Positions 1 through 62,985 of a DNA stretch of 64,000 bases are shown piece by piece. This DNA is from Labia minor (Eukaryota > Arthropoda > Insecta > Dermaptera > Spongiphoridae), in assembly GCA_963082975.1 (NCBI GenBank), contig OY720349.1:44435962-44499961 (forward strand), given 5' to 3'. The stretch's first letter is position 1. Every line of letters begins with the position of its first letter. The position numbers and the translations under genes were made by a program. The notes beneath the pieces were generated by a model. The model was not told the origin of the DNA and ran no database searches. It saw only the letters and a program-made list of their open reading frames with translations.

Positions 1-76
1 TTCAAAACGTATAAAAACATCAAAATCTCAACATCGAAAATTTTCGTGATCGCAATATTATCACTGGCGAGATAGT
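1..76 (+). mobile_element. Family A repeat, right end only
   Basis: This is the right-hand ~76 bp of a short dispersed repeat cut by the window edge. It matches the last part of the complete copy at 61620-62201 (shared words include cgaaaattttcgtgatcgca) and, reversed, the copies at 41423 and 41886. It ends gcgagatagt followed by an A-run, as the other copies do. Confidence 0.8.
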
Positions 77-1061
77 AACAAAAGTCGACCATAAAAATGC
101 TTAATTCTAATAACAATTCACCATAACGATTTTTCTAAGAATTTTCGGCAAATCAATTCAAATTCAATATTCACTTTTGTCTTTCGCCAATAAATTGTTA
201 ATTTATTCAGTCCAGTCACCTTAATTACGCTAATATATTTTCGAAAGATTACATTGGAAGAAATATTATTCGGATTCGATGTAAATTTAAAATAATTCTT
301 AATTTAAGTAAAAGTTTTACAATTCTATCCGCTTTAGGGCCCTGTTCGCTATAAGTGCAATTACTATATATACATATTATATATGTTCAATTTTCTCTAA
401 TGTTTCGATAAACCTGAGTTGGGGTAAGAGCCTGGAAACTTCTGAACAATTCATTATTTGTCTTCAAAGGCAAACTATGGCAACTATCCTTGGCTTCAAT
501 GATAATTAATTCAAAATATTTGTAGTGTAGATCGGAATAAATTATAGGCTAAGACGAGGATAATTTTTTTAAATTCTTAAACATATGTAAAAAAAATTTG
601 TAATCACATATTATAAATGAATAATATAAGATAGTTATAACAATAATCAAAATAATTTAAGGGGTCCAGCCCAAGATGTGTCAAAGTCATATAATATTAC
701 TGGGACTATGATCAATTTTATAAGAATTTGAGAACCACATGTTTTATTCTACGATTAAAAATTAATAAAAATGATGATTAATATGATAATATGACATTCT
801 ATATATCAAAAAATAATATATTAAATTATAATATTGGTTTGGAATAATTCTAATTAAATCACTAGATTAAATTATTATATACATATTAATTATATTAAAT
901 TTCAATTAAATTCAATTATTGTTTTAATTTGGGAATTTTTTAATAATACATACCTAGATCACATACTGGTATTTTAAATTTTTTTTTTTCCAAATGAGAA
1001 TATTGTTTTAAATATATTGCAATTAGTATCCGGGGATAATAAATTGCATAGGCAGAAATTA
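77..1061. other. A+T-rich stretch without recognised feature
   Basis: Short homopolymer runs and AT-rich words only. I see no coding frame, repeat end or RNA-like fold that I can support. Confidence 0.5.
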
Positions 1062-3739: not shown

Positions 3740-4086
3740 TTATTTTTAGTTTAATTAATCAATTATTAATTACTACTATATTTTAAGTGAAATATTTTGG
3801 GACAATGAATATAAAATTGTAAACTTTGTAAACTACCACTTCCGGTTTCCAAATATACACCAAAAGTTGATTAATTCATGTCACTGATGCATTAAGTAAA
3901 TATATGGAATTTTATCAGTGAGCCGTTCAAGCTATACACCTTTATACGGACACACAATGGAAAGACGGACGGATGGACAGACATCATGCTAAAAATACTT
4001 GTTTTTGTTAACAAAAAGCATATGTAAAAATCTCCACATGTCAAATTTGGTGTGAAAACAATACCTCCCTTTCTATCGCCGGTAAA
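3740..4086 (-). mobile_element. Family D repeat, inverted copy
   Basis: Reverse complement of the copies at 11626 and 19636. Shared words are ctaccacttccggtttcc, tgatgcattaagtaaatata, a ggacggatggacagacat GTCY core and the end caatacctccctttctatcg. No coding frame. The family appears as a short dispersed element with a GTCY microsatellite core. Confidence 0.75.
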
Positions 4087-9425: not shown

Positions 9426-11625
9426 ATCCACCAAGTATTTCAATCATTTTTGCATGCGTTTTAATGGAAAATAATTTATGATTTCACTAATTACCCCTCA
9501 GAAAATGTCTTTCGACAAATGCACTTGCAGCTAAACTATCAATCAACTTCATCTACCTGTAAAAAATTTACACTATAATAAATAAATACTAACTTTTTGA
9601 TATAACTATAATTAATAATTTGCAGTTTGAAAACGAATAGGAGTTCATAACAACTAATAATTTCAAACAGATTAGAATATATTATCTCTCTCTCTCTCTC
9701 ACACACAATAATAAATAATAAAAATTATAAGAAAATAATATTTCAAGATGTGTGAACTAAGAAATAAGGATATGTCCAATTTGAATATAACTTGATTTGT
9801 ACTTGAAGTACAAAAAAATATTTCTAGAACGTTCAATATTTATTTAAATTTTATTCCATTATCTACTAAAAGTTTATTTTGAAATTTAAAACCCATTGAA
9901 CCAAAACGTTTTCATAAAATTATAATTTAATGATATTTAGTATGTATTAGTCAGTATAGTTCTTGTAAAAAGGTAATTTGTTTTTAAAGGGTGATTATTT
10001 TATTAATAATTAATCGATCTGAATATAGTAAATGATAATAGAAAAGTGAATTAAAGTTGTACCGAGTGAATAATTTTGTATATTGTACGTGAAATAAATA
10101 TATTATTGTATTATTGTTGTTATTAAAATATATATAGTTTATATAGAATATGTTTTATATTGATTTTGAAAGTCTGTATAAGATGTGTTAATGAATTTAA
10201 TGGTTATTTTAATTTATGTAAATATGTAGTTTATTTATTTAAATTATAAATATTTGTACATATTGATTATATTATATAAATACTTATATATAATAAGTGT
10301 ACAGCAAATACCATAACTACTTAAATAGATAAAATAAATAATATTTGTTTAGTTGTGTTAATAAATACAAAATTCATATATATTGTATATTCAAAACAAT
10401 TATATACAACTAAAAAAAGGACAAAAAAAATCATCAATTAATTTACCAGATGAAAGAAAACGAATAAGTAGAGAAGAATCGAAAACAAATCTCCCTTGAA
10501 ATGTTTTATGTTAGGTAGTATATATAATTAAAAAATAATTAGATTTGTTTTCATTAAAAATTTAATTATTTCTTAAATTACAAAGTTGATTTTCAAAACC
10601 TCAAGAAATTAATCTCAATGTCAAAGATTCTCATTTTTTTCATTTTTCATATTTTTCCACTATTCTATTTTTTACTTTAATTTTTTTTTTTTTTTTTTAT
10701 AATCCAACAGTTCACAGAGTTAATTTCAAATTTAATTTATTTCAGTCAATTAAGAAAGATACGATCATTTTTTTAAAAGAATTTATTATAAATTCAAATG
10801 GATATATTATTTTATAATTACTGATTAAAGTATTAATCTTTTGATTAACTATTTTTTCTCATCCAAAAATATTTGGGAAAGTATATTTAATTAAATTAAA
10901 TTTTAAATTTATTTATAAAATAAAATATAGGAGGGTATTAAAGAAATAATTGTAATATGAGAATATTAAGAAAGATAAAATTCATTAAATTACTCGAAAA
11001 TTACTTTTACTTTTTTTCTATTAAAATGAATAATTAAATTCTAATTTATTAAAATTGTTATTTTTTTTTCATTAAAATATTTATTGGAATTAGAAAAATA
11101 ATGATTATTTTATTGCTGATAAATATTAACATTTTCTTAATCAAATTAAATATATATATACCATAACATATATTGTATTTCTACTTCTGAATAGATACTT
11201 TGATTATTTAAGACATTTAATTAGAACAAGAAAATATACTTTAATTCATCTTATTCTGTCGTAACTGCCTATAATATACATTACATGTAGAACAATGGCC
11301 ATGAAAACATGACTAAAACTTGTTGAAATAAAAAGGGAATCAACAACAAAGGAACTATCTCGGAAGAGACAGCTAGGGAAATTGTTTCAACAAAACAAAG
11401 CACTAAAGATTCAGTGAAACTAATAAGATGGTAACCATAGACAAAAACAATGAATAAAGGATGCGACAGTAGAGAGAAGAAAATGGCATTAAGGTCAAAA
11501 GAAAATTAATCAGAAATTAGAGAGTAAAAATTATACTATTAAAATTCCAAACAAAAATGAAACATTTATTTTAAAGAAATTTAAACACACACACACACAA
11601 ATATTTATTATTTTAATTTTTATTA
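9426..11625. other. Long A+T-rich stretch without recognised feature
   Basis: Holds a (TC)n(AC)n tract at 9684-9707, poly-T at about 10680-10699 and an (AC)n run at 11585-11601. No coding frame or element end that I can support. Confidence 0.5.
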
Positions 11626-11982
11626 GCGACCGACGATAGGAAGGGAAGGTATTGTTTTCACACCAAATTTCACAAGTGGAGATTTTACATATCTCCACGA
11701 ATCATGCATTTTGTTAACGGAAAAAAGTATTTTTAGCAGGATGTCTGTCCGTCTGTCCGTCCGTTGTATGTCCGTATGAACGGCTCAACGGATTTTGATA
11801 AAATTTGGTATATTTACTTAATTCATCAGTAGCATGAATTCATTAACTATTAGTGTATATTCGGAAACCGGAAGTGGTAGTTTTCAGAGTATTAATTTTA
11901 TATTCATTGCCGGAAATTTTTCACTTAAAATATAGTAGTAATTAATAATTGAGTAATTAAATTAAAAATAAAATAATAAGTT
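11626..11982 (+). mobile_element. Family D repeat
   Basis: Runs from cgaccgacgataggaaggg through ggtattgttttcacacc, a gtctgtccgtctgtccgtcc core and aaatttggtatatttactta to ggaaaccggaagtggtag and a subterminal tract. It directly abuts the family H terminus at 11983. Other copies: 3740-4086 (inverted), 12250-12572 (inverted, inside H) and 19636-19968. Confidence 0.75.
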
Positions 11983-12156
11983 GACCTGTGGCCAGGCGCA
12001 GAACCGACCGACGGTTTGAAGTAAATTAATTTCCAGCTACAGAATCAATTTCAAATAATTTTAATATATCTATTAATGCAATAAAAAACAGATATGGATA
12101 TAACATAAATATTTTTAATTTTATTTTATTTATAATATATAAGTAAGAGCTGGTTG

Positions 12157-12184
12157 TGACGTCATGAAGTGCTGGGTGACGTCA
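12157..12184. promoter_or_regulatory. Paired TGACGTCA palindromes
   Basis: Two perfect 8-bp palindromes (12157-12164 and 12177-12184), identical to the CRE/ATF consensus and 20 bp apart. The same pair with the same spacing is kept in the sister copy at 18447-18454 and 18467-18474. Function is inference; they could simply be ancestral element sequence. Confidence 0.45.
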
Positions 12185-12249
12185 TATAATTTTAAATTAA
12201 GAAAAAACTAATGAAGATGATTTTTCTCGAGGATAAAACCAATACAAAG

Positions 12250-12572
12250 TGCATGATTCGTGGAGATATGTAAAAAATCTCCTCATGTGGAATTTGGTTT
12301 GAATAACCCTTCCCTTCCTATCCGGATTTGCACCAAAAGTTGATCAATTCATCATACTGCATCATGATGCATTAAGTAAATATACCAAATTTCATCAAAA
12401 TCCGTTGAGGCTTTCAAGCAGTACACATCTATACGAACGGACGGACGGACAGACACCATGCTAAAAATACTTTTTTCTGTTAAGAAAATGCATGATTCGT
12501 GGAGATATGTAAAAATCTCCACATGGGAAATTTGGTGTGAAAACAATACCTCCCTTACTATCGTCGGTCGGT
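12250..12572 (-). mobile_element. Family D segment inside family H
   Basis: Inverted D sequence with its end cctcccttactatcgtcggt and a cggacggacggacagacacc core. The word tgcatgattcgtggagatat occurs twice (12250 and 12488), so part of the D end is duplicated within H. Confidence 0.7.
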
Positions 12573-12733
12573 AATAAAAACCAAGATAATATAATTTAGT
12601 CATTTTAATTCAAGTTTTAAAAATATTTTTTTTATATATTATAAATAACATATATAATTTACATATAATGTTGTTTGGAAATTAATTTTTTTCAAGTCGT
12701 CGGTTGGTTCTGTGCCTGGCCACAGCTCCTATT

Positions 12734-13433: not shown

Positions 13434-14044
13434 TCTTATCTTATTATGCTAGCTAAAATTGTTTGTATATATATATAGTCATGGGTTCTCAAAAACCGCT
13501 CTAACGATTTTTTTCAAATTCATACTAGATATAGTATTTATAAAGAAAAATTGATTTTTATTGATCACATCTCAGGAAAAATACATCTTAATTAGTTTTT
13601 TCTTAATTTAAATTTATATATGGAACACGACACAAATGACATCCATATTGAAATTTGACTCCCGCCTTTTTTTAAAGGTTATGGTATTAATATTTTTTTA
13701 TATTTAAAATATTTTAAAATTTTTAATTTAATTTCGAAATAAAATTAAAAATATAAATTTTAATAATATTTTATAATTATAAATTACGATATATATTTAT
13801 CATTCTTCCAATAAAAAAAATATTCATTCACTTAGAAACATATCTAATAATACATATTTATGTATTATTGAGGACACCAAGTTCCATTCATTTTATTCAG
13901 ATTGATGCATTGATGCAACATTTAATAATTGTAATAAATAATTAAAGAATTGTATCCCAAGTATTAATATTACCAACCAAACCCAATAATAATGAATTAT
14001 TTTTTTTAACTTAAGTACCGAGCCGAGGCTCGGGGTCCCGGTAC
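13434..14044 (+). mobile_element. Family E element, 611 bp copy E1
   Basis: Begins TCTTATCTTATTATGC after an A and ends in a G+C-rich hairpin finishing cccggtac before a T, so it lies between A and T without target duplication. Both ends match those of the 4.87-kb insertion at 34473-39340. The interior is noncoding and A+T-rich. The A|T placement and terminal hairpin resemble Helitron-type elements, but the CTRR end is lacking. Confidence 0.65.
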
Positions 14045-14045
14045 T
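14014..14045. repeat. Terminal stem-loop of family E
   Basis: agtaccg at the left pairs with cggtact at the right, enclosing an inner perfect inverted repeat ccgagcc/ggctcgg with a 2-nt loop. An identical copy lies at 39310-39341. The G+C-rich island stands out in its AT-rich setting. Confidence 0.75.
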
Positions 14046-14790: not shown

Positions 14791-15581
14791 CCAGAGGGGT
14801 CGCAAGAAAAATTTTCAGGGTCGCCAAATTTATATAACAATAAAAAAAACCTCTAATAAAAGGAAATTCCAGAAATAGTTTCATTTTAACTACGTTGACG
14901 ATTAAAAAAACCTCTACTAGATAGTAGATACTTAGGGGTCACGACAAATTTTTTTAAAAAACTCGGGAGTGTCCTCCCCTAGACTTAAATAAATAGGTAA
15001 TTAGGTTATTATTATTATGTTTTAACAACAATAAAAATAAACAAACTAATTAATTTAAATTATAAAGTAAAATGGTTTAACACTATTATATATATTTATA
15101 ATTTACACCTAACGCTACTTGTATAGGTAAAATGCCACTTCCGGTAGTCAGATCATGATGAAATTTGGTATCTCAATTTTTTTCATATTTTTTAAATCTA
15201 TATACAAAATAGGAAGCAAATATCTCGAAGCAAACTGGTACTTTACTTGAAAGGTAAACGCAACCATTGTAGGTAAAGTACCACTTTATCCGATTTTGAC
15301 GAAATTTTGATAGAAATCTACAAACTGTGAATAAAATCGGTGTACCAAATTTCGAAGTCCTAGCTTGATTAGTTTCTGAGTAAATTCGCTCACTGACAAA
15401 CATTCCATACATCCATACATACACACACAGACATAATTCGAAAAATGGTATTTTCCGACTCAGGGAGGTCTAAAACGTCAAGATCTATCGAAATCTCGAG
15501 GCCGAAACTTTTGACGATTCCAATACTTCCCTTATACGAAGTATGCGGGAAAGTAAAAAATGGGGGTCGCAAATGAAGATT
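14791..15581 (+). mobile_element. hAT-like non-autonomous repeat, split by family C
   Basis: Two pieces (14791-about 14961 and about 15555-15581) reconstruct a repeat also present inverted at 55147-55346. Shared words are gggtcgcaagaaaaattttc, aaacctctactagatagtag, ggggtcacgacaaattt and ggggtcgcaaatgaag. The other copy begins cagtggtgctcaact, a hAT-type terminus. It is interrupted at an A-run by the family C element. Confidence 0.65.
14962..15559 (+). mobile_element. Family C element C1, nested
   Basis: Begins ctcgggagtgtcctccc and ends tatgcgggaaagtaaaaa. The interior has aaatttggtatct, a short (ca)n/gaca core and ggaggtctaaaacgtcaaga. The uninterrupted sister hAT-like copy gives the empty site: seven A there, against six A left of C1 plus one A after its AGTAAAAA end. 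Insertion without target duplication therefore fits. Confidence 0.8.
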
Positions 15582-16859: not shown

Positions 16860-17695
16860 GCCATTAGAATGGCAGGAGGCAGTATTATCCCACTCTTTAA
16901 GAAAGGAAATAGAACCAACTGCAATAACTACAGGGGAATATCTCTTTTGACGACATCGTATAAGATTCTCTCGAAAATTATCTCAATGAAATTACGACCA
17001 TAAGGAGATACTAGAAGAATATTAATGCGGGTTTAGGCCAAATCGATCAACATTAGATCAGATATTTTCATTAAAGCATATATTAGAAAAAAAACGAGAA
17101 TTCAATATTACTGTTCACCAATTTTTTGTAGACTTTACAAAAGCATATGACTCAATAGACCGGGAAAAACTTTTTCAAATCTTGAACTTAATGGGAATTC
17201 CAAAAAAACTAGTACGTATGATTCAAATTTGTCTTGTCGGTAGTAAAGGAAGAGTAAGATTCGGGAATCAACAGTCAGAAATTTTCGAAATTTGGAATGG
17301 GTTAAAACAAGGAGACGCATTATCACCAATTTTATTTAATTTATTTCTGGAATATGTAATTAGATAAATTGGGAAGAAGTCAAACGAAATCGAGTTAAAC
17401 AAAAAAATTCAAGTATTAGGTTACGCAGACGACTTAAATATAATAGGTGATTCGGCAATTGCATTTATAGATTGCAATTGTAGAAAAATTTATCGAAGCA
17501 GGAAAAGAGGTGGGACTGGAAATAAATATTGCTAAGACAAAGTATTTAGTAACAGAGAGGAATAGTATTAACACACAAAATCTTAACATACAAGATATAG
17601 AATTTGAAAATGTAGAAAAAAATAAATACTTAGGTTCTGTATTAACGAAAGATAATAATATTCGAGAACAGTTTAAAGCGAGTTAGTTCAGTAGT
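16860..17695 (+). pseudogene. LINE reverse transcriptase relic
   Basis: Reverse transcriptase core of a non-LTR retrotransposon. In order, across frame slips: WQEAVIIPLFKKGNRT-like start, NNYRGISLLTT, GFRPNRSTLDQIF-like box (17030), FFVDFTKAYDSIDREKLFQI (17120-17180), NLMGIPKKLVRMIQICLVGS, WNGLKQGDALSPILFNLF (17296), a TAA at 17365, then VLGYADDLNIIGDSAIA with the catalytic YADD (about 17419) and KEVGLEINIAKTKYLVTERN. It is truncated at both ends: no endonuclease, and the frame ends near 17690. Sister copy at 58456 starts at the same codon region (cattagaatggcagga). Inactive. Confidence 0.85.
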
Positions 17696-18270
17696 AAATA
17701 TGTAATAACTATGTATGAAAATAAAAAAAAATGCTATGTTATTATTTATTACGAGTAATAATTAAGTATATCATAGTATTATATTGATTTAACAATTTAT
17801 TTACTTGCAGTTCGCCAAAATTTCAAGAACCGGACTGTACATCCCTGATTATACGCAATAGATTATTTATTTTTATTATTATTGTGGATGGATAACAACT
17901 TCAATAACCAGTAGTTTTAAAGTTGTTCGGGGTATTAACCTTATGAAATATTTATATTTTAAAGGATCAATGATTTTATGAATAATATAATATATATCAT
18001 AATAATTAAAAAAACTCTTTGCAAATATAAATTTTATTTATATTAAGACATATAAATATCGTAACATTTTCATTCTTTAGAAATGCGGAAACAATTCAAA
18101 TCAAATCAAAATAAGCTCCTCCAGTCCAAAAGAAACAATTCTAAGAACTATTCATGTCAATATTTGAATTTATTTTCCTCTAATGAAATTATAATTAAAA
18201 GAATACAATTTCTAATTTTAATCTTATAATATAAATCAATAACAACCTAGAATAAATATATAATATAATA
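17696..18270. other. No recognised feature
   Basis: A+T-rich sequence without supportable feature. Confidence 0.4.
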
Positions 18271-18556
18271 AGTTGACCTGTGGCCAGGTCCGAACCGACC
18301 GACGGTTTGAAGTAAATTAATTTCCAGCATCAGAAACAATTTCAAATAATTTTAAGATATCTATTAATGTAAAAAAAAGAGATATGAATATAACATAAAT
18401 ATTTTTAATTTTATTCTATTTATAATATATATGTGAGACCAGGCTGTGACGTCATGAATGGCTGGATGACGTCATATAATTTTAAATTAAGAAAAAACTA
18501 ATAAAGATGATTTTTCTCGAGGATAAAACCAATACAAAGTGCATGATTCGAGGTAA
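18271..18556 (+). mobile_element. Family H element, left part only
   Basis: Matches 11983-12260 from agttgacctgtggccagg to gtgcatgattcgagg, including the two TGACGTCA sites. The right half is missing. Confidence 0.75.
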
Positions 18557-19635: not shown

Positions 19636-19968
19636 TTACCGACCGACGATAGGAAGGGAAGGTATTGTTTTCACACCAAATTTCACATGTGAAGATTTTT
19701 ACATAACTCCACAAATCATGCATTTTCTTAACAGAAAAAAGTATTTTTAGCATGATGTCTGTCCGACCGTCCGTGTGTCCATTGTGTGTCCGTTTAGACG
19801 TGTATTGCTTGAAGGGCTCAACGGATTTTGATAACATTTGGTATATTTACTTAACCGTAAGTGGTAGTTTACAAAATATTAATTTTATATTCATTGTCGG
19901 AAAATATTTCACTTAAGATATAATATTAATTAATAATTGAGAAATTAAACTAAAAATAAAAACCAAGA
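19636..19968 (+). mobile_element. Family D repeat
   Basis: Full-style copy: accgaccgacgataggaagg start, ggtattgttttcacaccaaa, a gtctgtccgaccgtccgtgt core, and a ccgttgag-type segment in the form ctcaacggattttgata. A deletion removes the region around the ggaaaccggaagtgg word. Confidence 0.75.
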
Positions 19969-20090
19969 TATTCATTTTAATTCAAGTTTTAAAAATATTT
20001 TTTTTTTTGATACTTTATATATATATATAATGTTGTTTGGAAATTAATTTATTTCACAAATCATCAGCTGGTTCTGTGCCTAGCCACAGC
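19969..20090 (+). mobile_element. Family H right end
   Basis: Matches 12573-12732: aaaccaagat, attttaattcaagtttt, ttgtttggaaattaattt and the terminus ggttctgtgcctagccacag. It follows a family D copy in direct orientation, whereas the D inside H at 12250 is inverted. Confidence 0.7.
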
Positions 20091-20975
20091 TCATTTTTTT
20101 GAGATACTTTACTATTTCATAATTATTTAGTTTCAACTTTACTGTCTTAATATTTCTTATACTAATCTCTAAGTATTTTAATATATTTAATAATTAATTT
20201 CGCATTAAAGGGGCATTTTTCAATTAATCACGATTATTATATTGTATGAAATAAAGATAATTATGACAGCTTAATAGGATTCTTTCATTTTACAAGAATG
20301 AACAGAAAATTATACTCAATGGTACATACAATTACAAACAACATGTATGTTTAAGATAAAATTAATTCAAAAAATTATCATTTGAATTAAATTCTCATTT
20401 GAAATTAATGATCTTTAATTCACAAATTAAATTTGTTTTGTTTTAAATTATAATTTATTTCTATTTTTGTATAAAATTTTGCATTAGGATTATTAAAACA
20501 ATTAAGACAATATGAGAGAAAATAATGACAAGGGGGTGAATGAGGCAATTAAAACATTTTATTTTGTTTGGATCCCCAGGGATAAGCAGGTGAGGCCTTA
20601 AAAAGATTGCATTCCCCCACCCAATAACTCCCACTTCCACCACTTTTCAACTCCCTTAAAGTTTAATAATACAACCAACATAAGGGACATGAAAAAGATA
20701 TAATACAATAAAATGAAATATTTATTTATTAAAAGGTTGGTCGATTATTTTCAATTATTTCTCTTAATAGAATTCTTGAAAAGATAATATATTACATGCA
20801 TTTCCATTGAGGCTTAATAAAAAAAAAGTAATCGAATAAAAGGGAAAGTAATTGAAAACATATATAATTGATTTATATACATGTGATTGTGAGAGTATAA
20901 AATAATAATGTTGAAAATAGAACAAAAGCATTGAATTTAATTTTATCCAAAAGAATCTTTAAATAAAATTAAATA

Positions 20976-21520: not shown

Positions 21521-21634
21521 CTGGAGTGTTCTCCCCTAGACTTTCCCGCATATAAATAGGTAATTAGGTTATTATTATTATGTTTTAACAACAATAAAAA
21601 TAAACAAACTAATTAATTTAAATTATAAAGTAAA
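21521..21634 (+). mobile_element. Family C left-end fragment C2
   Basis: ctggagtgttctcccctaga followed by ctttcccgcatataaatagg and the internal gttattattattatgtttta word, identical in layout to the left ends at 14964 and 22883. It stops where the family F unit begins. Confidence 0.75.
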
Positions 21635-22882
21635 AAAATTCATCTTCAAATGTCGGAAGCTTATGAACACTCACCTCGTGATATCAAAGGGCTGAACTGG
21701 TTATTTTATTTTAATTTTAATCATTTATTTTATAATTATTAAGGAATTTTTATTAAAAAACCACATTGTATGTATACATTATTTATTAAATTAAAATTTG
21801 AATTTAATAATAAATATCAAAATAACCACAAAAGCTTTAATAAATACATTTATTTTATTTTATATTTTTCGTTGTTTCAATCATATTTGATACTAATAAC
21901 TCTCTGTTAAAAATTTATTTATTTTTTTTCTTTATCTTTGTTTGTAATCATCTCACCAGATGTAAGTTTTCATCGTTCTTTATTTTATACTAGCGAAACA
22001 ATATGCTCATCCCCACCAACAAATCAGGTGAGGAAATAATTTATACTTTCAATTAAACGAATTTTTAAAGTTATATATAATAAAATAAAGAATTTTTTTC
22101 TAATTCCAACCCTCATCTATTTCAACATGGTATATACTTATATTACTATATAAAGTTATGTTTTTTTAAAGAAATTGTTTTATTTAAAGTTTAAAGTTTA
22201 TAAATAAAATATAATATTTAGAGAATATTCAATTTTAATTAAAATATATATACAATTTCAGATCAGATTTGTTTTTAAAGTTTTCGTAGTTATCTTCCTT
22301 AATTATTATCTGATAATTAATTAAAAATGTAATTAATATATACTAAAAAGTCTCATGTTTGATTTTTTACAAACTTTTCTTTTAACTTTTCACAATGTCC
22401 CATAATTGTTAACAGCTTTGATTTTTTTTCTTTCAAGTTTTACCTAATGGAAGAATTTAATTTTAGGTAATAGAGTACTCACCAAAGTAAAAAAAAGAAA
22501 ATTGAATTTTCTTTTTTTTATTGTTGTATATATATATATTATATACTACTTATAGATCTATCTCGCTTTTCTTCTGCTTCAGTTCTTGATAACGTTTGCA
22601 ATTCAAATCTTTCAAAAGGTTACACCTTTAAGAATACATTTACTCCGGATAGATTTCTGAATATATTTTATATTCTTTGTAATATGATAACACTGCAGAA
22701 AACTTTAAGCTGTTATATGACTGAAATTCTCTTTTTTCCTTTTTTTAATTATTTCGCATAATGTTAATATAAATAAATAGATAAATAAATAAATTTCACC
22801 GAAATTAATTTCTTTTTTTGAGTTTACTGTTTATAATTATTGTTGATTGGTTATTATTTTAGTTACATACAAATAAAAAAAT
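21635..22882 (+). repeat. Family F unit, forward copy
   Basis: About 1.25 kb that recurs inverted at 34235-34472 plus 39341-40376. Shared landmarks are catcttcaaatgtcggaagc, cacctcgtgatatcaaaggg, gctcatccccaccaacaaat, gcttcagttcttgataacg and tggttattattttagttac. No coding frame. The uninterrupted junction at 22638/22639 is the empty site of the family E insertion. Confidence 0.8.
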
Positions 22883-23497
22883 CGGGAGTGTCCTCCCCTA
22901 GACTTTCCCGCATATAATTAGGTTATTATTATTATGTTTTAACAACAATAAAAATAAACAAACCAATTAATTTAAATTATAAAGTAAAATGGTTTAACAC
23001 TATTATATATATATATTTATAATTTACACCTAACGCTACTTGTATAGGTAAAATGTCACTTCCGGTAGTCAGATCATGATGAAATTTGGTATCTGAATTT
23101 TTTTCATATTTTTTAAATCTATATACAAAATATGAAGCAAATATCTCGAAGCAAACTGGTACTTTACTTGAAAGGTAAACGCATCCAGTGTAGGTAAAGT
23201 AGCACTTCCGGTTAACCGATTTTGACGAAATTTTGATAGAAATCTACAAACTGTGAATAAAATCGGTGTACCAAATTTCGAAGTCCTAGCTTGATTAGTT
23301 TCTGAGTAAATTCGCTCACTGACAAACATTCCATACATCCATACATCCATACATACACACACACACAGACATAATTCGAAAAATGGTATTTTCCGACTCA
23401 GGGAGGTCTAAAACGTCAAGATCTATCGAAATCTCGAAGTCGAAATTTTTGACGATTCCAATACTTCTCTTATACGAAGTATGCGGGAAAGTAAAAA
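22883..23497 (+). mobile_element. Family C element C3
   Basis: Complete: left cgggagtgtcctcccctaga plus ctttcccgca, right tatgcgggaaagtaaaaa. The core has a catacatccatacacacaca tract. It belongs to the duplicated unit, as its inverted equivalent C4 (33681-34234) sits at the same end of the inverted F copy. Confidence 0.82.
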
Positions 23498-25480: not shown

Positions 25481-25733
25481 AGGAGTCTATTCATTTCCGA
25501 CATATAAAATTATATCAATTTCCACTCAAAAGAATTATAATATTTAAATTTGTATTTTAATTTCTAATATTCAAATATTATTTCAATTATTTAATTTATT
25601 CTAAAAGTTCTCATTTTAATTAATTTAATAAAATATTTAGATTATATTTATCTTATATTTTTAAATTATTATTTTATTTACATATTCATTCATTTCATAG
25701 ACTATAAAATTTGTGTAAATCTAATGAAATAAT

Positions 25734-26390
25734 CTGGAGTGTCCGCACTCTACTATCTTGCAAATTTGAATTGGATTAATTAACATATATTATATTTAAA
25801 TAAGATTTATATAAAATCAAGAATGCTGCGATGGGCAGGCCACGTAGCTAGAATGGCGAAAAATATATTGGTGAGGAGACCGAGTAGGAACCGTCCGCTT
25901 GGAAGACCAAGGACGCGGTGGATGGATAATGTGAGAAGGGACGTGAGAGAGATGGGAGATGGTAGGGATTGGAGGGTTGTGACTCAGAATGGTTGTTGCG
26001 GTCAAAAACTTTCGAGTTTCGTAGAGCCACAGAGATAGATAGATAGATAAATTAAATTTAATTAAAATTATAAATTAAAATTAATAAATAATTTTTATTA
26101 AACCAGCGCGTGTTTGGCTCTTTGTTGATGGCACCAGGTCAAGTGCTGGCGCGTGATATGCAGTCGTGTTAAAAAATTAGCGATTTAATCAAGCTGAATT
26201 TTTATATATAGCAGTTTTATACAATTTTTAATAATGTGAAAAACTATCACATATATCTTTATTTTTACGGTCAGTTTCGAGGAAAAAAGTGAAAACGTGG
26301 TAGGTAATGACCCTCTCCCCGTTGAGCTACATTTCTCAAAAGTTGATAGAAAACTTTGAAATTTTGAATAATGTCCGTATACCAAATTAA
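25734..26390 (+). mobile_element. Family A element, interrupted by LINE fragment
   Basis: The left end ctggagtgtccgcactctac continues to about 25818. It resumes at about 26051 with aaccagcgcgtgtttggctc, gttgatggcaccaggtca, atatatagcagttttataca and gagctacatttctcaaaagt, and is lost near 26390 before the GTCY core. Order and spacing match 61620-62020. The interruption is a GATA-tailed LINE 3' fragment. Confidence 0.8.
25819..26050 (+). pseudogene. LINE 3' fragment with GATA tail, nested in family A
   Basis: The extreme C-terminus of a LINE ORF is open here: MLRWAGHVARMAKNILV, RPLGRPRTRWMDNVRRDV and REMGDGRDW, then 3' UTR words gtttcgtagagccacagaga and a (GATA)n tail at 26034-26049. The basic GRPRxRW segment is a hallmark of this LINE family's tail. 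Heavily 5'-truncated. Sister 3' ends: 28955, 42358 (inverted) and 56815. Confidence 0.82.
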
Positions 26391-32812: not shown

Positions 32813-33680
32813 GGTCTATATATCTAAATTTTCCTTGAAAAATTTGCATATCCAAAATCTCTACAATCATCTCTTGGATGTCTAGAACCTCCTTAAGTCC
32901 AATGTCTCCCTATGTCGATAAAAAAATGCACGTCGGCGACAAACGGGTTTTCTTGGAGACTTTTAAAAAATCTCGGATGAACATTAATCTTCAGGCTATT
33001 TAATGAAAAATGTTCTACTGTTTATAGTGACTTAGAAAAAAATTGAAAAACAAAAAGTGAACAGTCTCCCCGGTCTAATTAATTAATAATAATTATTTAT
33101 CCTGTTATTTATTAATGAGATCAGCCCACATTTATTAAATACATATTTTTTAACATCATATCATATAGTATAAATGTATTTTTTTTTATGTTAGATAAAT
33201 TATAATTATTATTAAATACATATTCTAATAGGATGGTAAGAGATTTACCTACAAGGATTCGCTATTTCACTTTAATGATCTAATCAGAAATTCGCTTGCT
33301 TTCAAAATAACACAGCATTTAACATACCAACAGACAGTTAATTAACAAATTCAATCATAATAAAATAGAATAAAATAATAAATAAAATCTACTTCCATGT
33401 GAAGAAAGAGCAAATGTAAACATTTTTTATAAAATATATTTATCTAGAGTCCTTAATTAGGGGTATAAAGAGCCCTAGGCAAATATATAACATTCACCCC
33501 ATCTCTCAACACTCATATTATTATGTAAAGTAAAAATTCAATTTTAGATTACATTTTTATTTATAGTAATTTTTTTTATACAATATTTTCTTACATGCCC
33601 CTATCGTCCCACGTATTTCGCGAGCGCTTTCTAATGGCATTCTTATTATTGCTACTCTTTACAATTATATATACATTTTT
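32813..33680. other. No recognised feature
   Basis: A+T-rich flank of the LINE insertion. ttaagtccaatgtctccc at about 32892 echoes 31310. Confidence 0.4.
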
Positions 33681-34234
33681 ACTTTCCCGTATACTTCGTA
33701 TAAGGGAAGTATTGGAATCGTCAAAAATTTCGACTTCGAGATTTCGATAGATCTTGACGTTTTAGACCTCCCTGAGTCGGAAAATACCATTTTTCGAATT
33801 ATGTCTGTGTGTGTGTGTATGTATGGATGTATGGATGTATGTAATGTTTGTCTGTGAGTAAATTTATTCAGAAACTACTCAATCTAGGACTTCGAAATTT
33901 GGTACACCGATATTATTCACAGTTTGTAGATTTCTATCAAAATTTCGTCAAAATCGGTTAACCGAAGGTGGTACTTTACCTACACTGGTTGCGTTTACCT
34001 TTCAAGTAAAGTACCAGTTTGCTTCGAGATATTTGCTTCATATTTTGTATATAGATTTAAAAATATGAAAAAAATTCAGATACCAAATTTCATCAAGATC
34101 TGACTACCGGAAGTGACCATTTTACTTTATAATTTAAATTAATTGGTTTGTTTATTTTTATTGTTGTTAAAACATAATAATAATAACCTAATTACCTATT
34201 TATATGCGGGAAAGTCTAGGGGAGGACACTCCCG
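33681..34234 (-). mobile_element. Family C element C4
   Basis: Inverted copy: starts actttcccgtatacttcgta and ends gcgggaaagtctaggggagg acactcccg. It lies at the outer end of the inverted F unit, matching C3. The core has a tgtgtgtgtgtatgtatgga tract. Confidence 0.82.
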
Positions 34235-34472
34235 ATTTTTTTATTTGTATGTAACTAAAATAATAACCAATCAACAATAATTATAAACAGTAAACTCAAA
34301 AAAAAAATTAATTTCGTTGAAATTTATTTATTTATTTATTTATATTAACATTATGCGAAAAATTAAAAAAAGGAAAAAAGAGAATTTCAGTCATATAACA
34401 GCTTAAAGTTTTCTGCAGGGTTATCATATTACAAAGAATATAAAATATATTCAGAAATCTATCCGGAGTAAA
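34235..34472 (-). repeat. Family F unit, inverted copy, part 1
   Basis: Reverse complement of about 22639-22882, including gtaactaaaataataacca and ttataacagcttaaagtttt... It stops at ccggagtaaa, where the family E insertion begins. Confidence 0.8.
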
Positions 34473-38680: not shown

Positions 38681-39309
38681 ATACATATATAATCAAAATT
38701 ATACGAAATGAACTTCACATAATAAATATATATTTTATGTTAGAGATAAGAATTATAAAACAGTTCGTATTGCAATATTTTAAACAAAGTTGTGTATTTA
38801 TATATATATAAATATAAGTTACAAATTTGTTTAAAATATATGTTTAAAATAATATATAAGTTATATATATATACATGCATATGAAATTCATCTTTCTCGT
38901 GAAATAGCGCGAATTTCGTCTGTTTTAAAATTTCTTACGCAGAAGTTTTCACTTCTGTCGGCCAGTCCCACGACTGCCAATTTTGCTTTTTTAATTCCGA
39001 AAAGCTGCAAAGCACGTTTTTTTGTCTTTAGTTTGTTTTATAACCACTTGGGGCGCTAAACAGTTTTTCAAAAAAACACTATAGAAAAAAAATATATGTA
39101 CCTATATATTATATATTTATGTATTATTGAGGAGCACAAGTTCATTAATTTTAATCAGATTGATGCAAATGTGTAACATTTAATAATTGTAATAAATAAT
39201 TAAAGAATTGTGTATCAATATTTTTTAAAGGGTAGAGCGAGAGCTCGGTGTCCCAGGTATTAATATTACCAGCCAAATCCAATAATAATGAATCATTTTT
39301 TTTAACTTA

Positions 39310-39341
39310 AGTACCGAGCCGAGGCTCGGGGTCCCGGTACT
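39310..39341. repeat. Terminal stem-loop of family E (second copy)
   Basis: Same sequence as 14014-14045: outer agtaccg/cggtact and inner ccgagcc/ggctcgg. It closes the composite insertion. Confidence 0.75.
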
Positions 39342-40376: not shown

Positions 40377-41422
40377 CCTGTTAACACCATTTGCGTTCAA
40401 AAATTAAATAACTTCGCACTTTGTGGTGGTGTTTAAGGTTAGCTCCAATTTAAATGAATGCCAAGAACATGACGGTAAACTGGTATGTCATGGGCAGTGT
40501 AAAACTGCCACAAAATGCATCAACCAAAATCATGACTATAGGTCTATAATATAGAAAAAGAAAGCATTTTTGAAACTTTAAAATGATGAGACTATCATAA
40601 AAAAAATGATTGTTAATATATCTAAAAATATAGTAAAACTTTTTTGAAATTTTTTTGTAAATTGCTTGATTGTAACAAATAATATAGAAAAGATGATATA
40701 TTTTTCAATTTCTCTAATAACAAAAATTATAATTAAATTAGATTTCAAAATATCATTAGTAAAATAACTATTAAAATTACGAAGTAGCGAGGTGAGTAAG
40801 TAGTTAGGGCATTAACAATAAATTAATTTGGCTATGTTGATTATTAAACAAGAAATGTCATATTCAATCGATGGTGATAATGCTATAAAAAATTTCCAAT
40901 AAATATTAATTTTGAAAATATATTTTATTTTATTTTTTTCTTTTATATTATATGAGCCTCGAAATTATGTTTTTTTTTGTAATCAAAATAATTTCAATTA
41001 TTATATCTATTGACTATTTTTTTTATTTTTAATTAAAATAAATAAATACTAATTTTTATCTAATTTATTCTTAATAAGAAATTTATATTAAATATTAATT
41101 TTTTTCAGTAAATAAGCCATTTATTTAACTTCGTAATAGTCATTAATTTAAATAATTTTTTTTATATTTTACAAGAAATATATATATATATATATATATA
41201 TTAATATTTTATATATTCGATATTAAATATTTCTTTTAAATTAAAGGTTGATTGGTTTATTGGTAAATTTTATTGAAAATTCATTGTGTGAATGGGCGAG
41301 GGAGCGACAAATATATCTCCAATAAGGGCAACAGAAACCTACGATACAATTAACTCTAGTTAAGTAACTTTATTTGTTTTTTTTCGCCTTTTTTCCTTAT
41401 TTCTTTATAGTTTTTTGTTTTT
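40377..41422. other. No recognised feature
   Basis: A+T-rich sequence with a (TA)n run at 41183-41201. A G+C-richer patch at 41290-41340 has no recognised motif. Confidence 0.45.
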
Positions 41423-41706
41423 ACTATCTTGTGAGATAGTATTGCGATCACGAAAATTTTCGATTTTGAGATTTTGATGTTTTTATAGGTTTTGAAGGTT
41501 CCTGAATCATTTTCACTAAGGTTGAGAAAAATGTATTAGTTATTTATTTTATATAATTTTGGATAAATTAATTTTGGATTTAACTACACTAAAACCTTCC
41601 CTGGGATGCCCACAACAATCCCTGAAAGTTTCACCGTAATCGGACGGGTAGTTTTTGAGTATTTGACAGACACACAGACAGTCATTGCCTTTTATATGTA
41701 TAGATG
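41423..41706 (-). mobile_element. Family A-related repeat with a different interior
   Basis: The right end matches family A (actatcttgtgagatagtat, gattttgatgtttttatag, ggttcctgaatcattttcac). Beyond about 41535 the sequence is new (cttccctgggatgcccacaa, gtttttgagtatttgacaga, cagacacacagacag). It is a chimera or subfamily keeping the A-type end and hairpin. Confidence 0.65.
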
Positions 41707-41885
41707 ATTTCTAATGCATTATGAACGATCAAAAAAATACTACATAAATGTTTATTTGTTAAAAATCATTCGACAAGTATTTTACGAATAATATTAAAAT
41801 AAATATTTAGATAAAACTTTTCACACCTACAGTTAGTATAATCAATTTTATAATTAATTTTTTTTTATTTAAATATAATTTTTAC

Positions 41886-42328
41886 TATCTCGCCAGAGAT
41901 AGTATTGCTATCACGAAAATTTTCGATGTTGAGATTTTGATGTTTTTATACGTTTTGAAGGTTCCTGAATCATTTTCACTAAGGTTGTAAAAATGTTGGA
42001 AGAGGGTCATAACTTACAACGTTTTGATTTTTTTTCCTCTAAAGTGACCGTAAAAATAAAGATATATGTTTGATAATTTTTCACATGATTAATAATTGTA
42101 TAAAACTGCTATATATAGAAAATCAGCTTGATTGAATTGCTGAAATTACCAGAATTAATTTTTTAACACTGCAAATCTCGCCATGGCGCCAACAACAAAA
42201 AGCCAAACATGCGCTGGTTTAATATTTATTATTTATAATTTATAATTAATTAAATTTAATTTAAATATAATATATTATGTTATTTAATCCAATTCAAATT
42301 GCGAGATAGTCGAGTGGAGACACTCCAG
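41886..42328 (-). mobile_element. Family A element, inverted, near-complete
   Basis: Both ends present: actatctcgccagagatagt at its right end and tcgagtggagacactccag at its left end. The interior matches 61620-62201 but lacks the GTCY/(ca)n segment. Confidence 0.85.
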
Positions 42329-42357
42329 CTAATTTTAAATATGTTTTCGAAATCATC

Positions 42358-52800: not shown

Positions 52801-52957
52801 AATCTCACGCGCCAACACGTGACCAAACATGCGCTGGTTCAATAAATGTTATTTGTTAATTTTAATTTATAATTTAATTAATTTAATTTAATTTAAATTA
52901 ATATATGTTAAATAATGCAATTCAAATTTGCGAGATAGACGAGTGGAGACACTCCAG
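52801..52957 (-). mobile_element. Family A left-end fragment, inverted
   Basis: aatctcacgcgccaacacgt, catgcgctggttcaataaat, and the terminus gagtggagacactccag before an A/T run. About 22 bp are deleted near its start relative to 61620-62201. Confidence 0.8.
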
Positions 52958-54849: not shown

Positions 54850-55920
54850 CGAACAAGTTCGAAACAAAGTGTTTATTTACTCTCTATACATTTTTGCCTA
54901 CGCTCAAACCAATTCCACTCTGAAGACTTTCGTAGTAAAATGGTTTTGAAAGTCTTCAACAGCTTCTTGAAGTGATGAAAACCGCCATCCGCCCATCTTT
55001 TGTTTGACAGTAATGAATAAAAAGTCATTAGGCGATAAATCGGGTGGATACGGGGTAATGAGACATTAATTCAATGTTTTTTTCATTCAAATATTCAGTT
55101 GTTTCACGTGCTTTATGTGAGCTGGTATTGTCGTGATGGTGCGCAACCTAACTTCATTTGCGACCCCATTTTTTTGAAAGAATTTGTCACGACCCCAGAC
55201 TAGATAGTAGAGGTTTTTTTTAATCGTCAACTTAATTAAAATGCAACTATTTCTGAATTTCCTTTTTTTATTGTTATATAAAGTTCTTCAAATTTGGCGA
55301 TCCTGAAAATTTTTCTCGCGATCCCCAGAGGAGTTGAGCACCACTGCTCTAATGGAATGGTTGCGACCTGTCCAGTACAACCGAAGAAACAAGCGATCAG
55401 TTTCTTAGAAGTGCTCATTGAACAAATAACTTTAGTGGGATTGGGTTCATCGTTAAACACCCAAGCAATAGACTGTTTTTTGCTTTCAGGATCATTCGAA
55501 TATATCCAAGTTTTGAATTTTTTCTACATTTCCTGACACCAATCAATACGACTCTTTTTTTGAGCTTCGGTTAAATTATGCGGAACAAATCTTTCTCACA
55601 TCTAACTGTTCATGCAAATTGATTGTATTGCAGCCTGTGATATCTTAAGAGACGCTTCTATCTATTTGTAAATCATATGCCGATCTTTAATCATGTTACT
55701 TGCGCACAGCATCGATGTTTCTCGGAATGACAACCGATTTTTTCCGACCTTCTAGAGGTCCATCACTAACGGAAACCCGGGCATGACGAAATTCTGCATA
55801 CCAAATGTAAATAGCCTGATGATGCTTTATTACCAAAAGTTGCACGAAGCGATACTATGTATTGTTGTTGAATAAGGCCTATTTTGAAATCATAAAAAAT
55901 CATTTTCATTTTTGAACAAA
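54850..55920 (-). pseudogene. mariner transposase, interrupted and deleted
   Basis: Read on the minus strand. The N-terminus starts near 55905 (MIFYDFKIGLIQQQ), followed by stops. The mid-region is FNDEPNPTKVICSMSTSKKL and GCTGQVATIPLEQ (55460-55360). The hAT-like repeat comes next, and beyond it HHHDNTSSHKARETTEYLNE (second catalytic Asp; about 55135), where the block up to the DN motif is missing. The third catalytic region is garbled (SPD not readable), and the C-terminal half follows in shifted frames. Non-functional. A lineage distinct from the mariner at 5764. Confidence 0.75.
55147..55346 (-). mobile_element. hAT-like non-autonomous repeat inside mariner
   Basis: On the minus strand: cagtggtgctcaactcctct start, gatcgcgagaaaaattttca, aaacctctactatctagtct, ggggtcgtgacaaattcttt and ggggtcgcaaatgaag. 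Same repeat as 14791-15581, but without the family C insertion, so it is the empty site. An 8-bp duplication could not be shown. Confidence 0.65.
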
Positions 55921-58455: not shown

Positions 58456-59265
58456 CTCATTAGAATGGCAGGAGACAATTATTACCTCACTTTTTAAGAA
58501 GAAAAATACGACGGACTTCAGTAACATTGGGGCAATTTCTCTTTTGACTATAAGATTCTCTCGAATATTATTTTATTAAAATTACGACCATAGGAAGAGG
58601 AAATATTAGGAGAATTCAGATTCGGATTCAGGCCAAATCGATCAGCATTAGATCCAATATTTTCATTAAAGCAGATATTAGAAAACAAACACGAATTCAA
58701 TATTTCTGTTCACCAATTATTTGTAGACTTTAGTAAAGTATAAATATTACTTTTTCAAATTTTAATCTTAATGGAAATTCCGAAAAAACTAGTATGTATG
58801 ATTCAAATTTTTCTTGAAGGAAGTAAAGGAGGTGTAGAATGCGACAATCAATTATCAGAAACTTTCGAGATTCGGAATGGGTTAAAACAAGTATACACAC
58901 TATCACCAATTTTATTTAATTTAGTACTTGAATATGCGAATTGATAAATTGTGGCAAAATCAAAGAGAATCCAATTAAACAAAAAATTCAAGTATTAAGT
59001 TATGCAGATGACTTAAATATAATTGGAGACTCAGCAATTGCAGTTAAAGATAGCGCTGAAAAAATTAATCGAAGCAAGAAAAGAGGTGGGGTTGGAAATT
59101 TAAGAACAAAGTATTTAGTAACAGAGAGGAACAGTATTAACACACAAAGTCGTAACATACAAAACGTATAAAATGTAAATGTAGAAAAATTTAAATACTT
59201 AGGTTCTGTAATCAGGAAGAATAATAATATTCGAAAATAATTTAAATCAAGGTTGGAATCTCAGG
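58456..59265 (+). pseudogene. LINE reverse transcriptase relic
   Basis: Second copy of the RT core seen at 16860-17695 and starting at the same place (cattagaatggcagga). Pieces in shifting frames: ISLLTI-like motif, FGFRPNRSALDPIFSLKQ (about 58618), VHQLFVDFSK (58708), ILMEIPKKLVCMIQIFLEGS (58768), NGLKQVYTLSPILFNL (58878; the QGD Gly/Asp changed to Val/Tyr), VLSYADDLNIIGDSAIAVKD with intact YADD (58995) and TKYLVTERNSINTQ. It ends near 59265, where family G begins. Inactive. Confidence 0.85.
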
Positions 59266-60644: not shown

Positions 60645-61619
60645 TTATATATGATCTGGATAAAGAGAAATAAATAGAAGATACTATATACAGGTACCTT
60701 TCATTGAATTGAAGCCTCGTTTGTATTTGTCTCTTTATCTAATGAAAATCGATAGATAATATAAAGACAGTAAAGTTGAAGGGTTAAGAAAACAAAGCTT
60801 AGTGCAAAGGAATTCACTAATTGTTAGAAAACACAATTATTTGTTTTTTAAACAAAAATATCAGAAAGGAGTGAGCAAAAGGGTATGTTTTCCAATATTA
60901 AATAAAAAAAAAAGAGAGAAAGAATTATAATGGATAAATGTGAAAGGGTGTTAAGAAAAATAAATAAATCAATAGATTTTTTTTTTCAATATAATTTCTT
61001 CAATTATATTTAAAGAAAAATAAGAATAACTAATGTAAAATAAGTAAAGACAAGTTATCTTAAAGAAAGCACGTCTGTTTATCGGTGTGGAACCAATTTA
61101 ATTTTTAATTTTTTTTTTTTTTTTTTTTTTGAGAAAGTAAAATTAGAATTTAAAGTGAAATTCATATAATGTCATATATATTATAAAATAATAAAATCAA
61201 AATGAAGATTTTATCTTCTAATATACATAAATGTAATGTTGTATGTTAAATATTAAATAGGCAAATATACCCTACCATATCAATAATTTATTGTTCAATA
61301 GAATTTTATATATGTACGGTTTTTTTTATTTTTGTTAGAGATTTTCCAAATATTTAATTGAAGCTCATTATAAAAGTTTCATAGTTAAGATAATTAAAAC
61401 AAACTCATTTTTTCCATCACGTAAAGTTTTTGAACTCATTAATTAAATTAAAAATTATTTCAATCTTTGTTAATTATCGCACTTTTTAATTATATCCCCT
61501 CTTCTTTTTAATACTTGAACAAAGAATGTAAGACGCCATTGAACCCGTTTATTCTTCTTTCAATTTACTTTGATTATAAATAAGACAATCGTTGATTGAA
61601 TGTATGTAAACGTAATAAG
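59491..61619. other. Long A+T-rich stretch without recognised feature
   Basis: (AT)n at 60608-60641 and poly-T at about 61109-61131. No supportable gene or element. Confidence 0.5.
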
Positions 61620-62201
61620 CTGGAGTGTCTCCACTCGACTATCTCGCAATTTGAATAGGATTAAATAACATAATATATTATATTTAAATTAAATTTAATT
61701 AATTATAAATTATGAATAATAAATATTAAACCAGCGCATGTTTGGCTTTTTGTTGATGGCACCACGTCACGTGTTGGCGCGTGAGATTTGCAGTGTTAAT
61801 TCTGGTAATTTCAGCGAATCAATCAAGCTGAAATTCTATATATAGCAGTTTTATACAATTATTAATCATGTGGAAAATTATCCAACCTATATCTTTATTT
61901 TTACGGTCACTTTAGAGGAAAAAAAATCAAAACGTTGTAGGTAATGACCCTCTTTCGGTTGAGCTACATTTCTCAAAAGTTGATACAAAACTACGAATTT
62001 TGAATAATGCTCATGTACCAATTTTCATCATTCTAGCTCAAACCGTTTTTGGGTAATCTTGGTTACATACACACACACACACACAGACATTTTTCTCAAC
62101 CTTAGTGAAAATGATTCAGGAACCTTCAAAACGTATAAAAACATCAAAATCTCAACATCGAAAATTTTCGTGATCGCAATACAATCTCTTACGAGATAGT
62201 A
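61620..62201 (+). mobile_element. Family A element, complete copy (582 bp)
   Basis: Left end: ctggagtgtctccactcg (hairpin gagtg/cactc) then actatctcgc. Right end: a related sequence finishing gagatagt plus aaaaa. The interior in order: aaccagcgcatgtttggctt, gttgatggcaccacgtcacg, tatatatagcagttttatac, gagctacatttctcaaaagt, gctcaaaccgtttttgggta, an (ac)n tract (62068-62088) and gaaaatgattcaggaacctt. No coding frame. No obvious target duplication. Confidence 0.85.
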
Positions 62202-62985
62202 AAAAGAGCAAAATATAAGCCAATGAATTCAAAGAAAATTACACATTTCGATTTTTATTTATTTTATTTATTTATTTATTTATTTACAACAATTATTCTC
62301 TCTCCTATTTGGAGTTTGAGATGTTTATACACATTTTTCTAGTTTATTTGATTTTTATTTAACATTATTTATACTAAATAAAACTCGCCTTGTTTATCGA
62401 TTTATTAATGTTAATGTTAATGAAAGAAATATAATCTGTAATTAATTTTTATTCTTCTTTTTTTTTATTGAAATAAATTACAAAGAGAGAATATTACCTA
62501 TATAATCACAAGTATACGTATAATATAATTCCTATATATAATTTGGTAATTATATATTAAAATATTAAAATATCTTTTTTAATTGTATTTATTAAATATA
62601 TTATGCGAGTCAAACAAGATAGAAACGGATATAGAAAAATGAGGATGGAGAGATTCAGGTTATGAGAGGTGAGTCGTTTAAAATAGATAGTATTCTGTAA
62701 ACATAAACGACAAGGCATTAAAAATAAACACTGATCAAATGTAAAAAAACAATTCACGTAATATTCTGTTAAATTCAAGAAGATGATCTAAAATGAAATA
62801 TTTTTAAACAAATCTAATTGAAATTATTTTTTTTTTATATTGTTATTCAAGTATTGGTCTCATTATTTATTTTTCTTTCTCTAGACATTAACATGAAATG
62901 TTCTTATATTAGATTTACGAAAAAAACAACATATAAAATACATATGTTTTTAAATTCGGGGAAATATAAAGATAATCGAATAAGC
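62202..62985. other. No recognised feature
   Basis: A+T-rich with a (ttta)n tract near 62262-62285. Nothing else supportable. Confidence 0.45.

Follow-up and report, generated by a model that had tools for sequence, protein, structure and literature searches.

Short non-coding elements of three related families in the Labia minor genome resemble DINE-1-like non-autonomous Helentrons

Results

Family A, C and E elements in the window

The window, by which we mean the whole 64-kb stretch of DNA analysed (C6:44435962-44499961; G+C about 27%), is drawn from a genome of 604 Mb in 71 contigs. It contains short non-coding elements of two families, A and C, both of which proved to be real, and of a third relative, E, together amounting to 17 pieces and 5,325 of the 64,000 bases (Table 1). 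The motifs and hairpins reported in the initial annotation were present at the places it named, with the end at 61620 that had been called "left" being the 3', hairpin-bearing end of an element on the minus strand, so that left and right had been swapped; three copies (41886, 52801 and 33681) have the opposite orientation to this one. The motif was also described as recurring inverted at the other end of each family, and it was found at the places given, except that the C copy at 14963 is without the 3' ACTTTCCCGC. By eye, the window also holds open reading frames resembling non-LTR retrotransposons, as well as two stretches (13952-14045 and 39248-39341) with common ends, AGTACCGAGCC...GGGGTCCCGGTACT, that are like the side of the Helitron-like locus L027 on which the hairpin lies.

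Table 1. Family A, C and E copies in the window, with the parts of the full-length family A element at 61614-62205.
Feature	Position	Strand	Remarks
Family A, full length	61614..62205	-	5' end (T-run) at 62205, 3' end (hairpin) at 61614
61614 element: 5' subTIR ACTATCTCGT after T-run	62191..62200	-	
61614 element: inner arm of 5' inverted repeat	62181..62188	-	one mismatch here
61614 element: microsatellite GTCTGTGTGT...	62067..62088	-	
61614 element: 3' subTIR (GCGAGATAGT, element strand)	61638..61647	-	
61614 element: 3' hairpin	61621..61636	-	overlapping registers GAGTG/CACTC (61623-61636) and TGGAG/CTCCA (61621-61633)
Family A, internal deletion	41880..42331	+	
Family A, 5' part alone	41420..41534	+	
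Family A, split by other sequence	25733..26388	-	
Family A, 3' part	52801..52957	+	
Family A, 5' end running past window edge	1..78	-	
Family C, 3' subTIR deleted	14963..15558	-	empty site 55152-55247
Family C, 3' part	21521..21637	-	
Family C, full length	22882..23496	-	
Family C, full length	33677..34235	+	
Family E element	11976..12574	-	subTIR ACCGACCGAC, GTCY microsatellite; 3' stem down to 4 bp
Family E, 3' part	18268..18551	-	
Family E relative, 5' part	19636..19864	+	related 3' end at about 20038-20100
Family E relative, 5' part	11623..11884	+	
Family E relative, 5' part	3831..4083	-	

The elements are built in one order: a T-run, the subTIR, an inner arm, ATTG, a conserved block and a microsatellite make up the 5' side, and an AT-rich interior leads to the inverted subTIR, the hairpin and a short tail that adjoins T-rich DNA. 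The subTIR reads ACTATCTCG in A, ACTTTCCCGCATA in C and ACCGACCGACG in E, and its length, judged by eye from copies and consensus, is 13 bp in C, 11 bp in E and only 9-10 bp in A, as against the roughly 11-15 bp that characterise HINE subTIRs. The microsatellite of the 5' block is GTCTGTGTGT in A and C and GTCYGTCY, (GTCY)n, in E. The 5' end is the T-run followed by ACT or ACC; at the 3' terminus C ends in CGA and E in CTTATT, and the A end holds CTAA. Family E, as in L061, L068 and further copies, also carries an internal repeat of its own 5' block, some 300 bp into the element.

The consensus sequences of A and C could be aligned end to end (613 bp, 60.5%, E-value 2e-33), which overturns the earlier statement that the interiors beyond about 100 bp differ. 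Those of C and E aligned over 280 bp (61%, E-value 6e-14) and those of A and E over 143 bp (E-value 1e-6). The three families are diverged lineages of one element, and as such they are not independent witnesses to its architecture.

Copy sampling, boundaries and empty sites

A first look across the whole genome gave 4654 A, 1466 C and 1973 E candidates, and the best 40 per family were scored; copy numbers are therefore rough, and diverged copies of all three families are under-sampled. For the same reason the divergence of the sampled copies from their consensus (1.7% in A and 1.1% in C) understates the age of the families. Within-family divergence was considered as a sign of constraint on the ends and rejected, the ends of A and C being no more conserved than the remainder. 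About 20 of the 44 E copies in the divergence and flank analysis were second readings starting at the internal repeat of the 5' block, so figures from that set were left unused. A structural scan for a T-run plus subTIR, an inverted subTIR and then a hairpin of at least 5 bp with a GNNA loop recovered four elements in the window, two A and two C, and none in five shuffled windows (single-base shuffles, 500-base blocks); the scan is blind to truncated or mutated copies and to every E copy. When viral contigs were scanned with the A and C end patterns, each gave zero matches.

The boundaries recur from copy to copy. Among 20 further A copies, the alignment began at the T-run's first T in 18 and extended to the final 3' base of the query in 18, and at 16 C loci, the window's own included, the 5' end was present in all 16, with an exact-pattern 3' end in 12 and a mutated one in four. 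Directly after the 3' end, 17 of 18 full-length C copies have a T; in A, each of the three positions following the end is a T in 22 of 24 copies. Same-direction tandems were also observed, in which 7 of 80 3' ends had the 5' start of another element at most 38 nt further on (L003, L004, L020, L062, L065, L068 and L072; cross-family pairs C to E, C to A and A to C); an opposite-strand neighbour within 80 nt was seen once.

Empty sites were sought with 66 flank joins, and the results given here come from the readable part of the output. Besides that of the C element at 14963-15558 (Table 1), they were found for an E element in L082 (window 17003-17168 and 58597-58737), for the E element at 11976-12574 (L074, L063 and window 19877-20030) and for a C element in L074 that is itself nested inside an E-type element. 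The matches were about 77-90% identical, and L074 alone reached the 90% identity that Thomas 2014 describes as the standard for an empty site (PMC4067079). No clear target duplication was present at four empty sites, where a few A/T bases were ambiguous; for the E copy at 11976-12574 the join was three A/T bases longer than the empty site, and a short A/T duplication is possible there. Insertion was thus into T-rich (TT) DNA without clear target duplication, the exact TT phase being ambiguous inside T-runs.

Hairpin stems and covariation

The 3' stem-loop is GAGTG-GAGA-CACTC or TGGAG-ACA-CTCCA in A, GGGAG-GACA-CTCCC in C and GACCTG-GCCA-CAGGTC in E. The A stem GAGTG/CACTC and the C stem GGGAG/CTCCC had been placed at the same position by the initial annotation and read as a stem kept while its bases changed. 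We found that these two are not homologous and that, column by column, GAGTG/CACTC has no compensated change; the A counterpart of GGGAG/CTCCC is TGGAG/CTCCA. In an alignment of nine A and seven C ends (14 distinct rows), this homologous register was paired in 93.7% of cells. One of its five pairs differed on both sides, and that pair is disrupted in 2 of the 14 rows; the count of one two-sided pair compares with 1.0 in shuffled alignments and was reached by 495 of 500 shuffles. The GAGTG/CACTC register was paired in 77.1% of cells and had no two-sided pair, two of its five pairs being unpaired in 7 of the 14 rows.

At the 5' inverted repeat (seven A and seven C rows, 11 distinct), 93.2% of cells were paired, compared with 38-55% in slid versions. 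Two of eight pairs had changed on both sides (A-T to T-A and T-A to C-G), one had become T-G and one was unpaired across all distinct C rows. Two-sided pairs numbered 2 as against 1.8 in shuffles, a count reached by 396 of 500, and the paired-cell share together with the covariation score was reached by none of the 500. Both end alignments exceeded their shuffles in paired-cell share and covariation score; the two-sided counts equal the shuffles because the comparison is of two families only. The 5' inverted repeat of E, read by eye, is partial, with five of seven pairs formed, a third pair that is C-G and not T-A, and two G-A mismatches.

Within families, 75 of 80 3' ends (30 A, 20 C and 25 E copies) fitted an ungapped register. 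Nine stem pairs had changed (three in A, six in C and none in E), of which one became G-T and none was compensated. Such uncompensated changes are the behaviour of dead copies, and are compatible both with selection on the source elements and with its absence. DNA fold energies separate the two A registers weakly (-3.6 and -2.9 kcal/mol), and in the lowest-energy DNA fold of the C 3' end the subTIR pairs with the right stem arm, not as a simple hairpin. By chance, about 4% of shuffled 25-mers from each family's 3' end form a 5-bp hairpin. A subfamily of E (window about 12736 and 20100, and L074) has its hairpin in a further register, CTGTG(CCTGGC)CACAG.

A stem kept in different registers mimics covariation without amounting to column-wise compensation. 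The hairpins do show genuine co-changes, but in small number: three homologous pairs between the related families A and C, along with register changes. Structure-based recognition of both ends, which covariation had been taken to suggest, is no more than hinted at by those three pairs; the 3' example that had prompted it is a register slip, and compensation within families is 0 of 9. The titles and abstract openings that we searched announced no formal covariation test of Helentron ends, which is not proof that there is none.

Autonomous relatives in the genome

The PF14214 profile had 104 matches in the genome. One Helentron is present in two copies on contig C1 (L104+L106 and L057+L075) that are 98.7% identical over 6,364 bp and 99.2% identical over their last 249 bp, with similarity ending at most 5 bases from the family A 3' end. 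At this 3' end the Helentron matched family A in 41 of 41 bp and at 97.8% of 45 bp. These last 41-45 bp are the only sequence common to the two, so that what is established as common is the 3' end. In L104+L106 the family A match starts about 220 bp past the last stop, and L057 has about 1 kb extra in between. L057 holds a single open frame of 2181 aa (L057:3394-9936, minus) with DUF6570, Helitron_like_N and PIF1 domains; in this frame and in L104/L106 an endonuclease-like region is followed by a weakly Ulp1-like (Peptidase_C48) C-terminus, both the Exo_endo_phos_2 and the Peptidase_C48 matches being weak and under the Pfam cut-offs. As the Rep frame runs toward the hairpin end, we assigned that end as 3'. 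Over 3.5 kb upstream of the L057 frame, no family A 5' end (T-run plus ACTATCTCGC) occurred; the proposed search for a Rep/helicase element with the same ends thus yielded the 3' end and, within this span, not the 5' end.

Among Rep loci L021-L058, convincing A, C or E ends were found only at L057, with its family A 3' end, and at L045, where E and C 3' ends lie upstream of a decayed Rep; the rest were AT-rich or interior pieces. Neither the L027, L023 and L047/L049 types of Rep locus nor L099, L103 and L105 had A, C or E ends nearby, and no Helentron with C or E ends was found among the Rep loci read. The L027 type is like a canonical Helitron, with no endonuclease seen and, by eye, a hairpin plus CTAA on one side; the L023 type is canonical-Helitron-like as judged by protein alone; and the L047/L049 type has DUF6570, Helitron_like_N and PIF1 (in L047), its own ends not having been found. 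A further Helentron, L100, at about C2:16278764-16286300, carries DUF6570, Helitron_like_N, PIF1 and Exo_endo_phos in broken frames, flanked by a 15-bp subTIR pair that is palindromic by eye. Its ends are unlike those of A, C and E, and a C copy sits upstream of it in the opposite direction. Elsewhere, a series of Helitron_like_N matches, several with stops, lies at G000:C5:46739897-46792979, regularly spaced by 9,817 and about 5,690 bp. At L053+L047+L054 an LTR retrotransposon interrupts the Rep gene; its 1,033-bp LTRs are identical, so this insertion is probably recent.

Discussion

With a probability of about 0.93, we regard A, C and E as three related HINE families, that is, short non-autonomous Helentrons that are DINE-1-like. 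The identity, proposed at the outset by inference, is supported by the layout, the T-rich targets, the empty sites and a Rep/helicase element with the family A 3' end. Elements that are short, non-coding and multi-copy, with inverted motifs at their ends, could also be MITE-like products of cut-and-paste transposition, the motifs then being the terminal inverted repeats of a DDE transposon, and DINE-1 was itself formerly classed there. At the hairpin end, however, the inverted motif is internal and the hairpin lies outside it, the empty sites have no clear target duplication, and the same 3' end is borne by a Rep/PIF1 element, all of which makes a MITE-like origin extremely improbable. It is also very improbable that these are canonical Helitrons (5' TC, 3' CTRR, A-T insertion), given a 5' end of T-run plus ACT/ACC and not TC, C and E termini of other sequence, T-rich insertion sites and the presence of subTIRs, even though a hairpin lies near the 3' end, CTAA happens to occur in the end of family A, and look-alikes of canonical Helitrons exist in the genome (L027 type).

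How the hairpins came to differ is a separate matter within the HINE reading. Register slips or template-switch events could have re-created the palindromes at once, in place of stepwise compensatory selection; palindrome re-creation by template switch is an idea reportedly put forward in an earlier paper. The different registers of the A and C stems, the replacement of GACCTG(GCCA)CAGGTC by another hairpin in the E subfamily, and the failure of any changed pair within families to be compensated all point this way. Three homologous pairs are nevertheless two-sided between A and C, and with three families single-base intermediates cannot be ordered. We consider slips or template switches a real possibility, somewhat short of even odds.

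The mechanism can be carried over, mostly by inference, from Helentrons. The Helentron Rep (an HUH nuclease) and the PIF1 helicase would nick at the T-run/subTIR 5' end, and a single strand would be peeled off from 5' to 3'. The inverted subTIR at the 3' end, with the hairpin, may then mark termination, and the strand would next be joined to T-rich DNA, leaving the target unduplicated. A bolder proposal, which we think unlikely, is that the Helentron 3' signal consists in having a hairpin, short (about 5 bp) and with a mostly GNNA loop, directly after the subTIR and not in specific bases, that it outlives family divergence by register slip or wholesale replacement, as in A, C, E and the E subfamily, and that a single Helentron machinery could therefore mobilise, within one genome, several families whose subTIR sequences differ.

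The class is known, and families A, C and E themselves are new. This 604-Mb genome contributes three HINE families that are abundant and rich in near-identical copies, plus two kinds of Helentron, and the co-occurrence of families that differ in subTIR and stem provides a test bed for what the Helentron Rep reads at the ends.

The closest comparison is with DINE-1/INE-1 of Drosophila, for which Yang and Barbash 2008 describe subTIRs, a partial inverted repeat on the 5' subTIR, a GTCY microsatellite, no ORF, T-rich (TT) insertion without duplication, and a stem-loop 3' of the 3' subTIR whose stem differs between species (PMC2374699), features shared by the elements reported here. In their view the differences between stems suggest compensatory mutation, and the loop may serve to end rolling-circle replication. 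Unlike DINE-1, our families have other subTIR sequences and 3' stems of 5-6 bp as against 7-11, several diverged families occur in one genome, and no large central repeats were seen, although E repeats its 5' block. Elements of this sort were linked to Helentrons by Thomas, Vadnagara and Pritham 2014, who also mention distinct Helitrons that directly adjoin each other (PMC4067079). The likeness to their HINEs and Helentrons extends to a Rep/helicase that has an endonuclease region, to non-autonomous elements of short length, to a 3' palindrome and to T-run ends. The L104/L057 element differs in its added, weakly Ulp1-like C-terminus and its weak endonuclease match, and is known from its 3' end alone; the other Helentron, L100, has palindromic subTIRs, as in mite Helentrons. 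Hel-2/MITE01 of Lepidoptera (Coates 2015) has a comparable 5' inverted repeat, subterminal inverted repeats, 3' hairpin and microsatellite, but it is classed there as a Helitron, with TC/CTRR ends and flanking A/T (PMC4344730), whereas A, C and E are without these.
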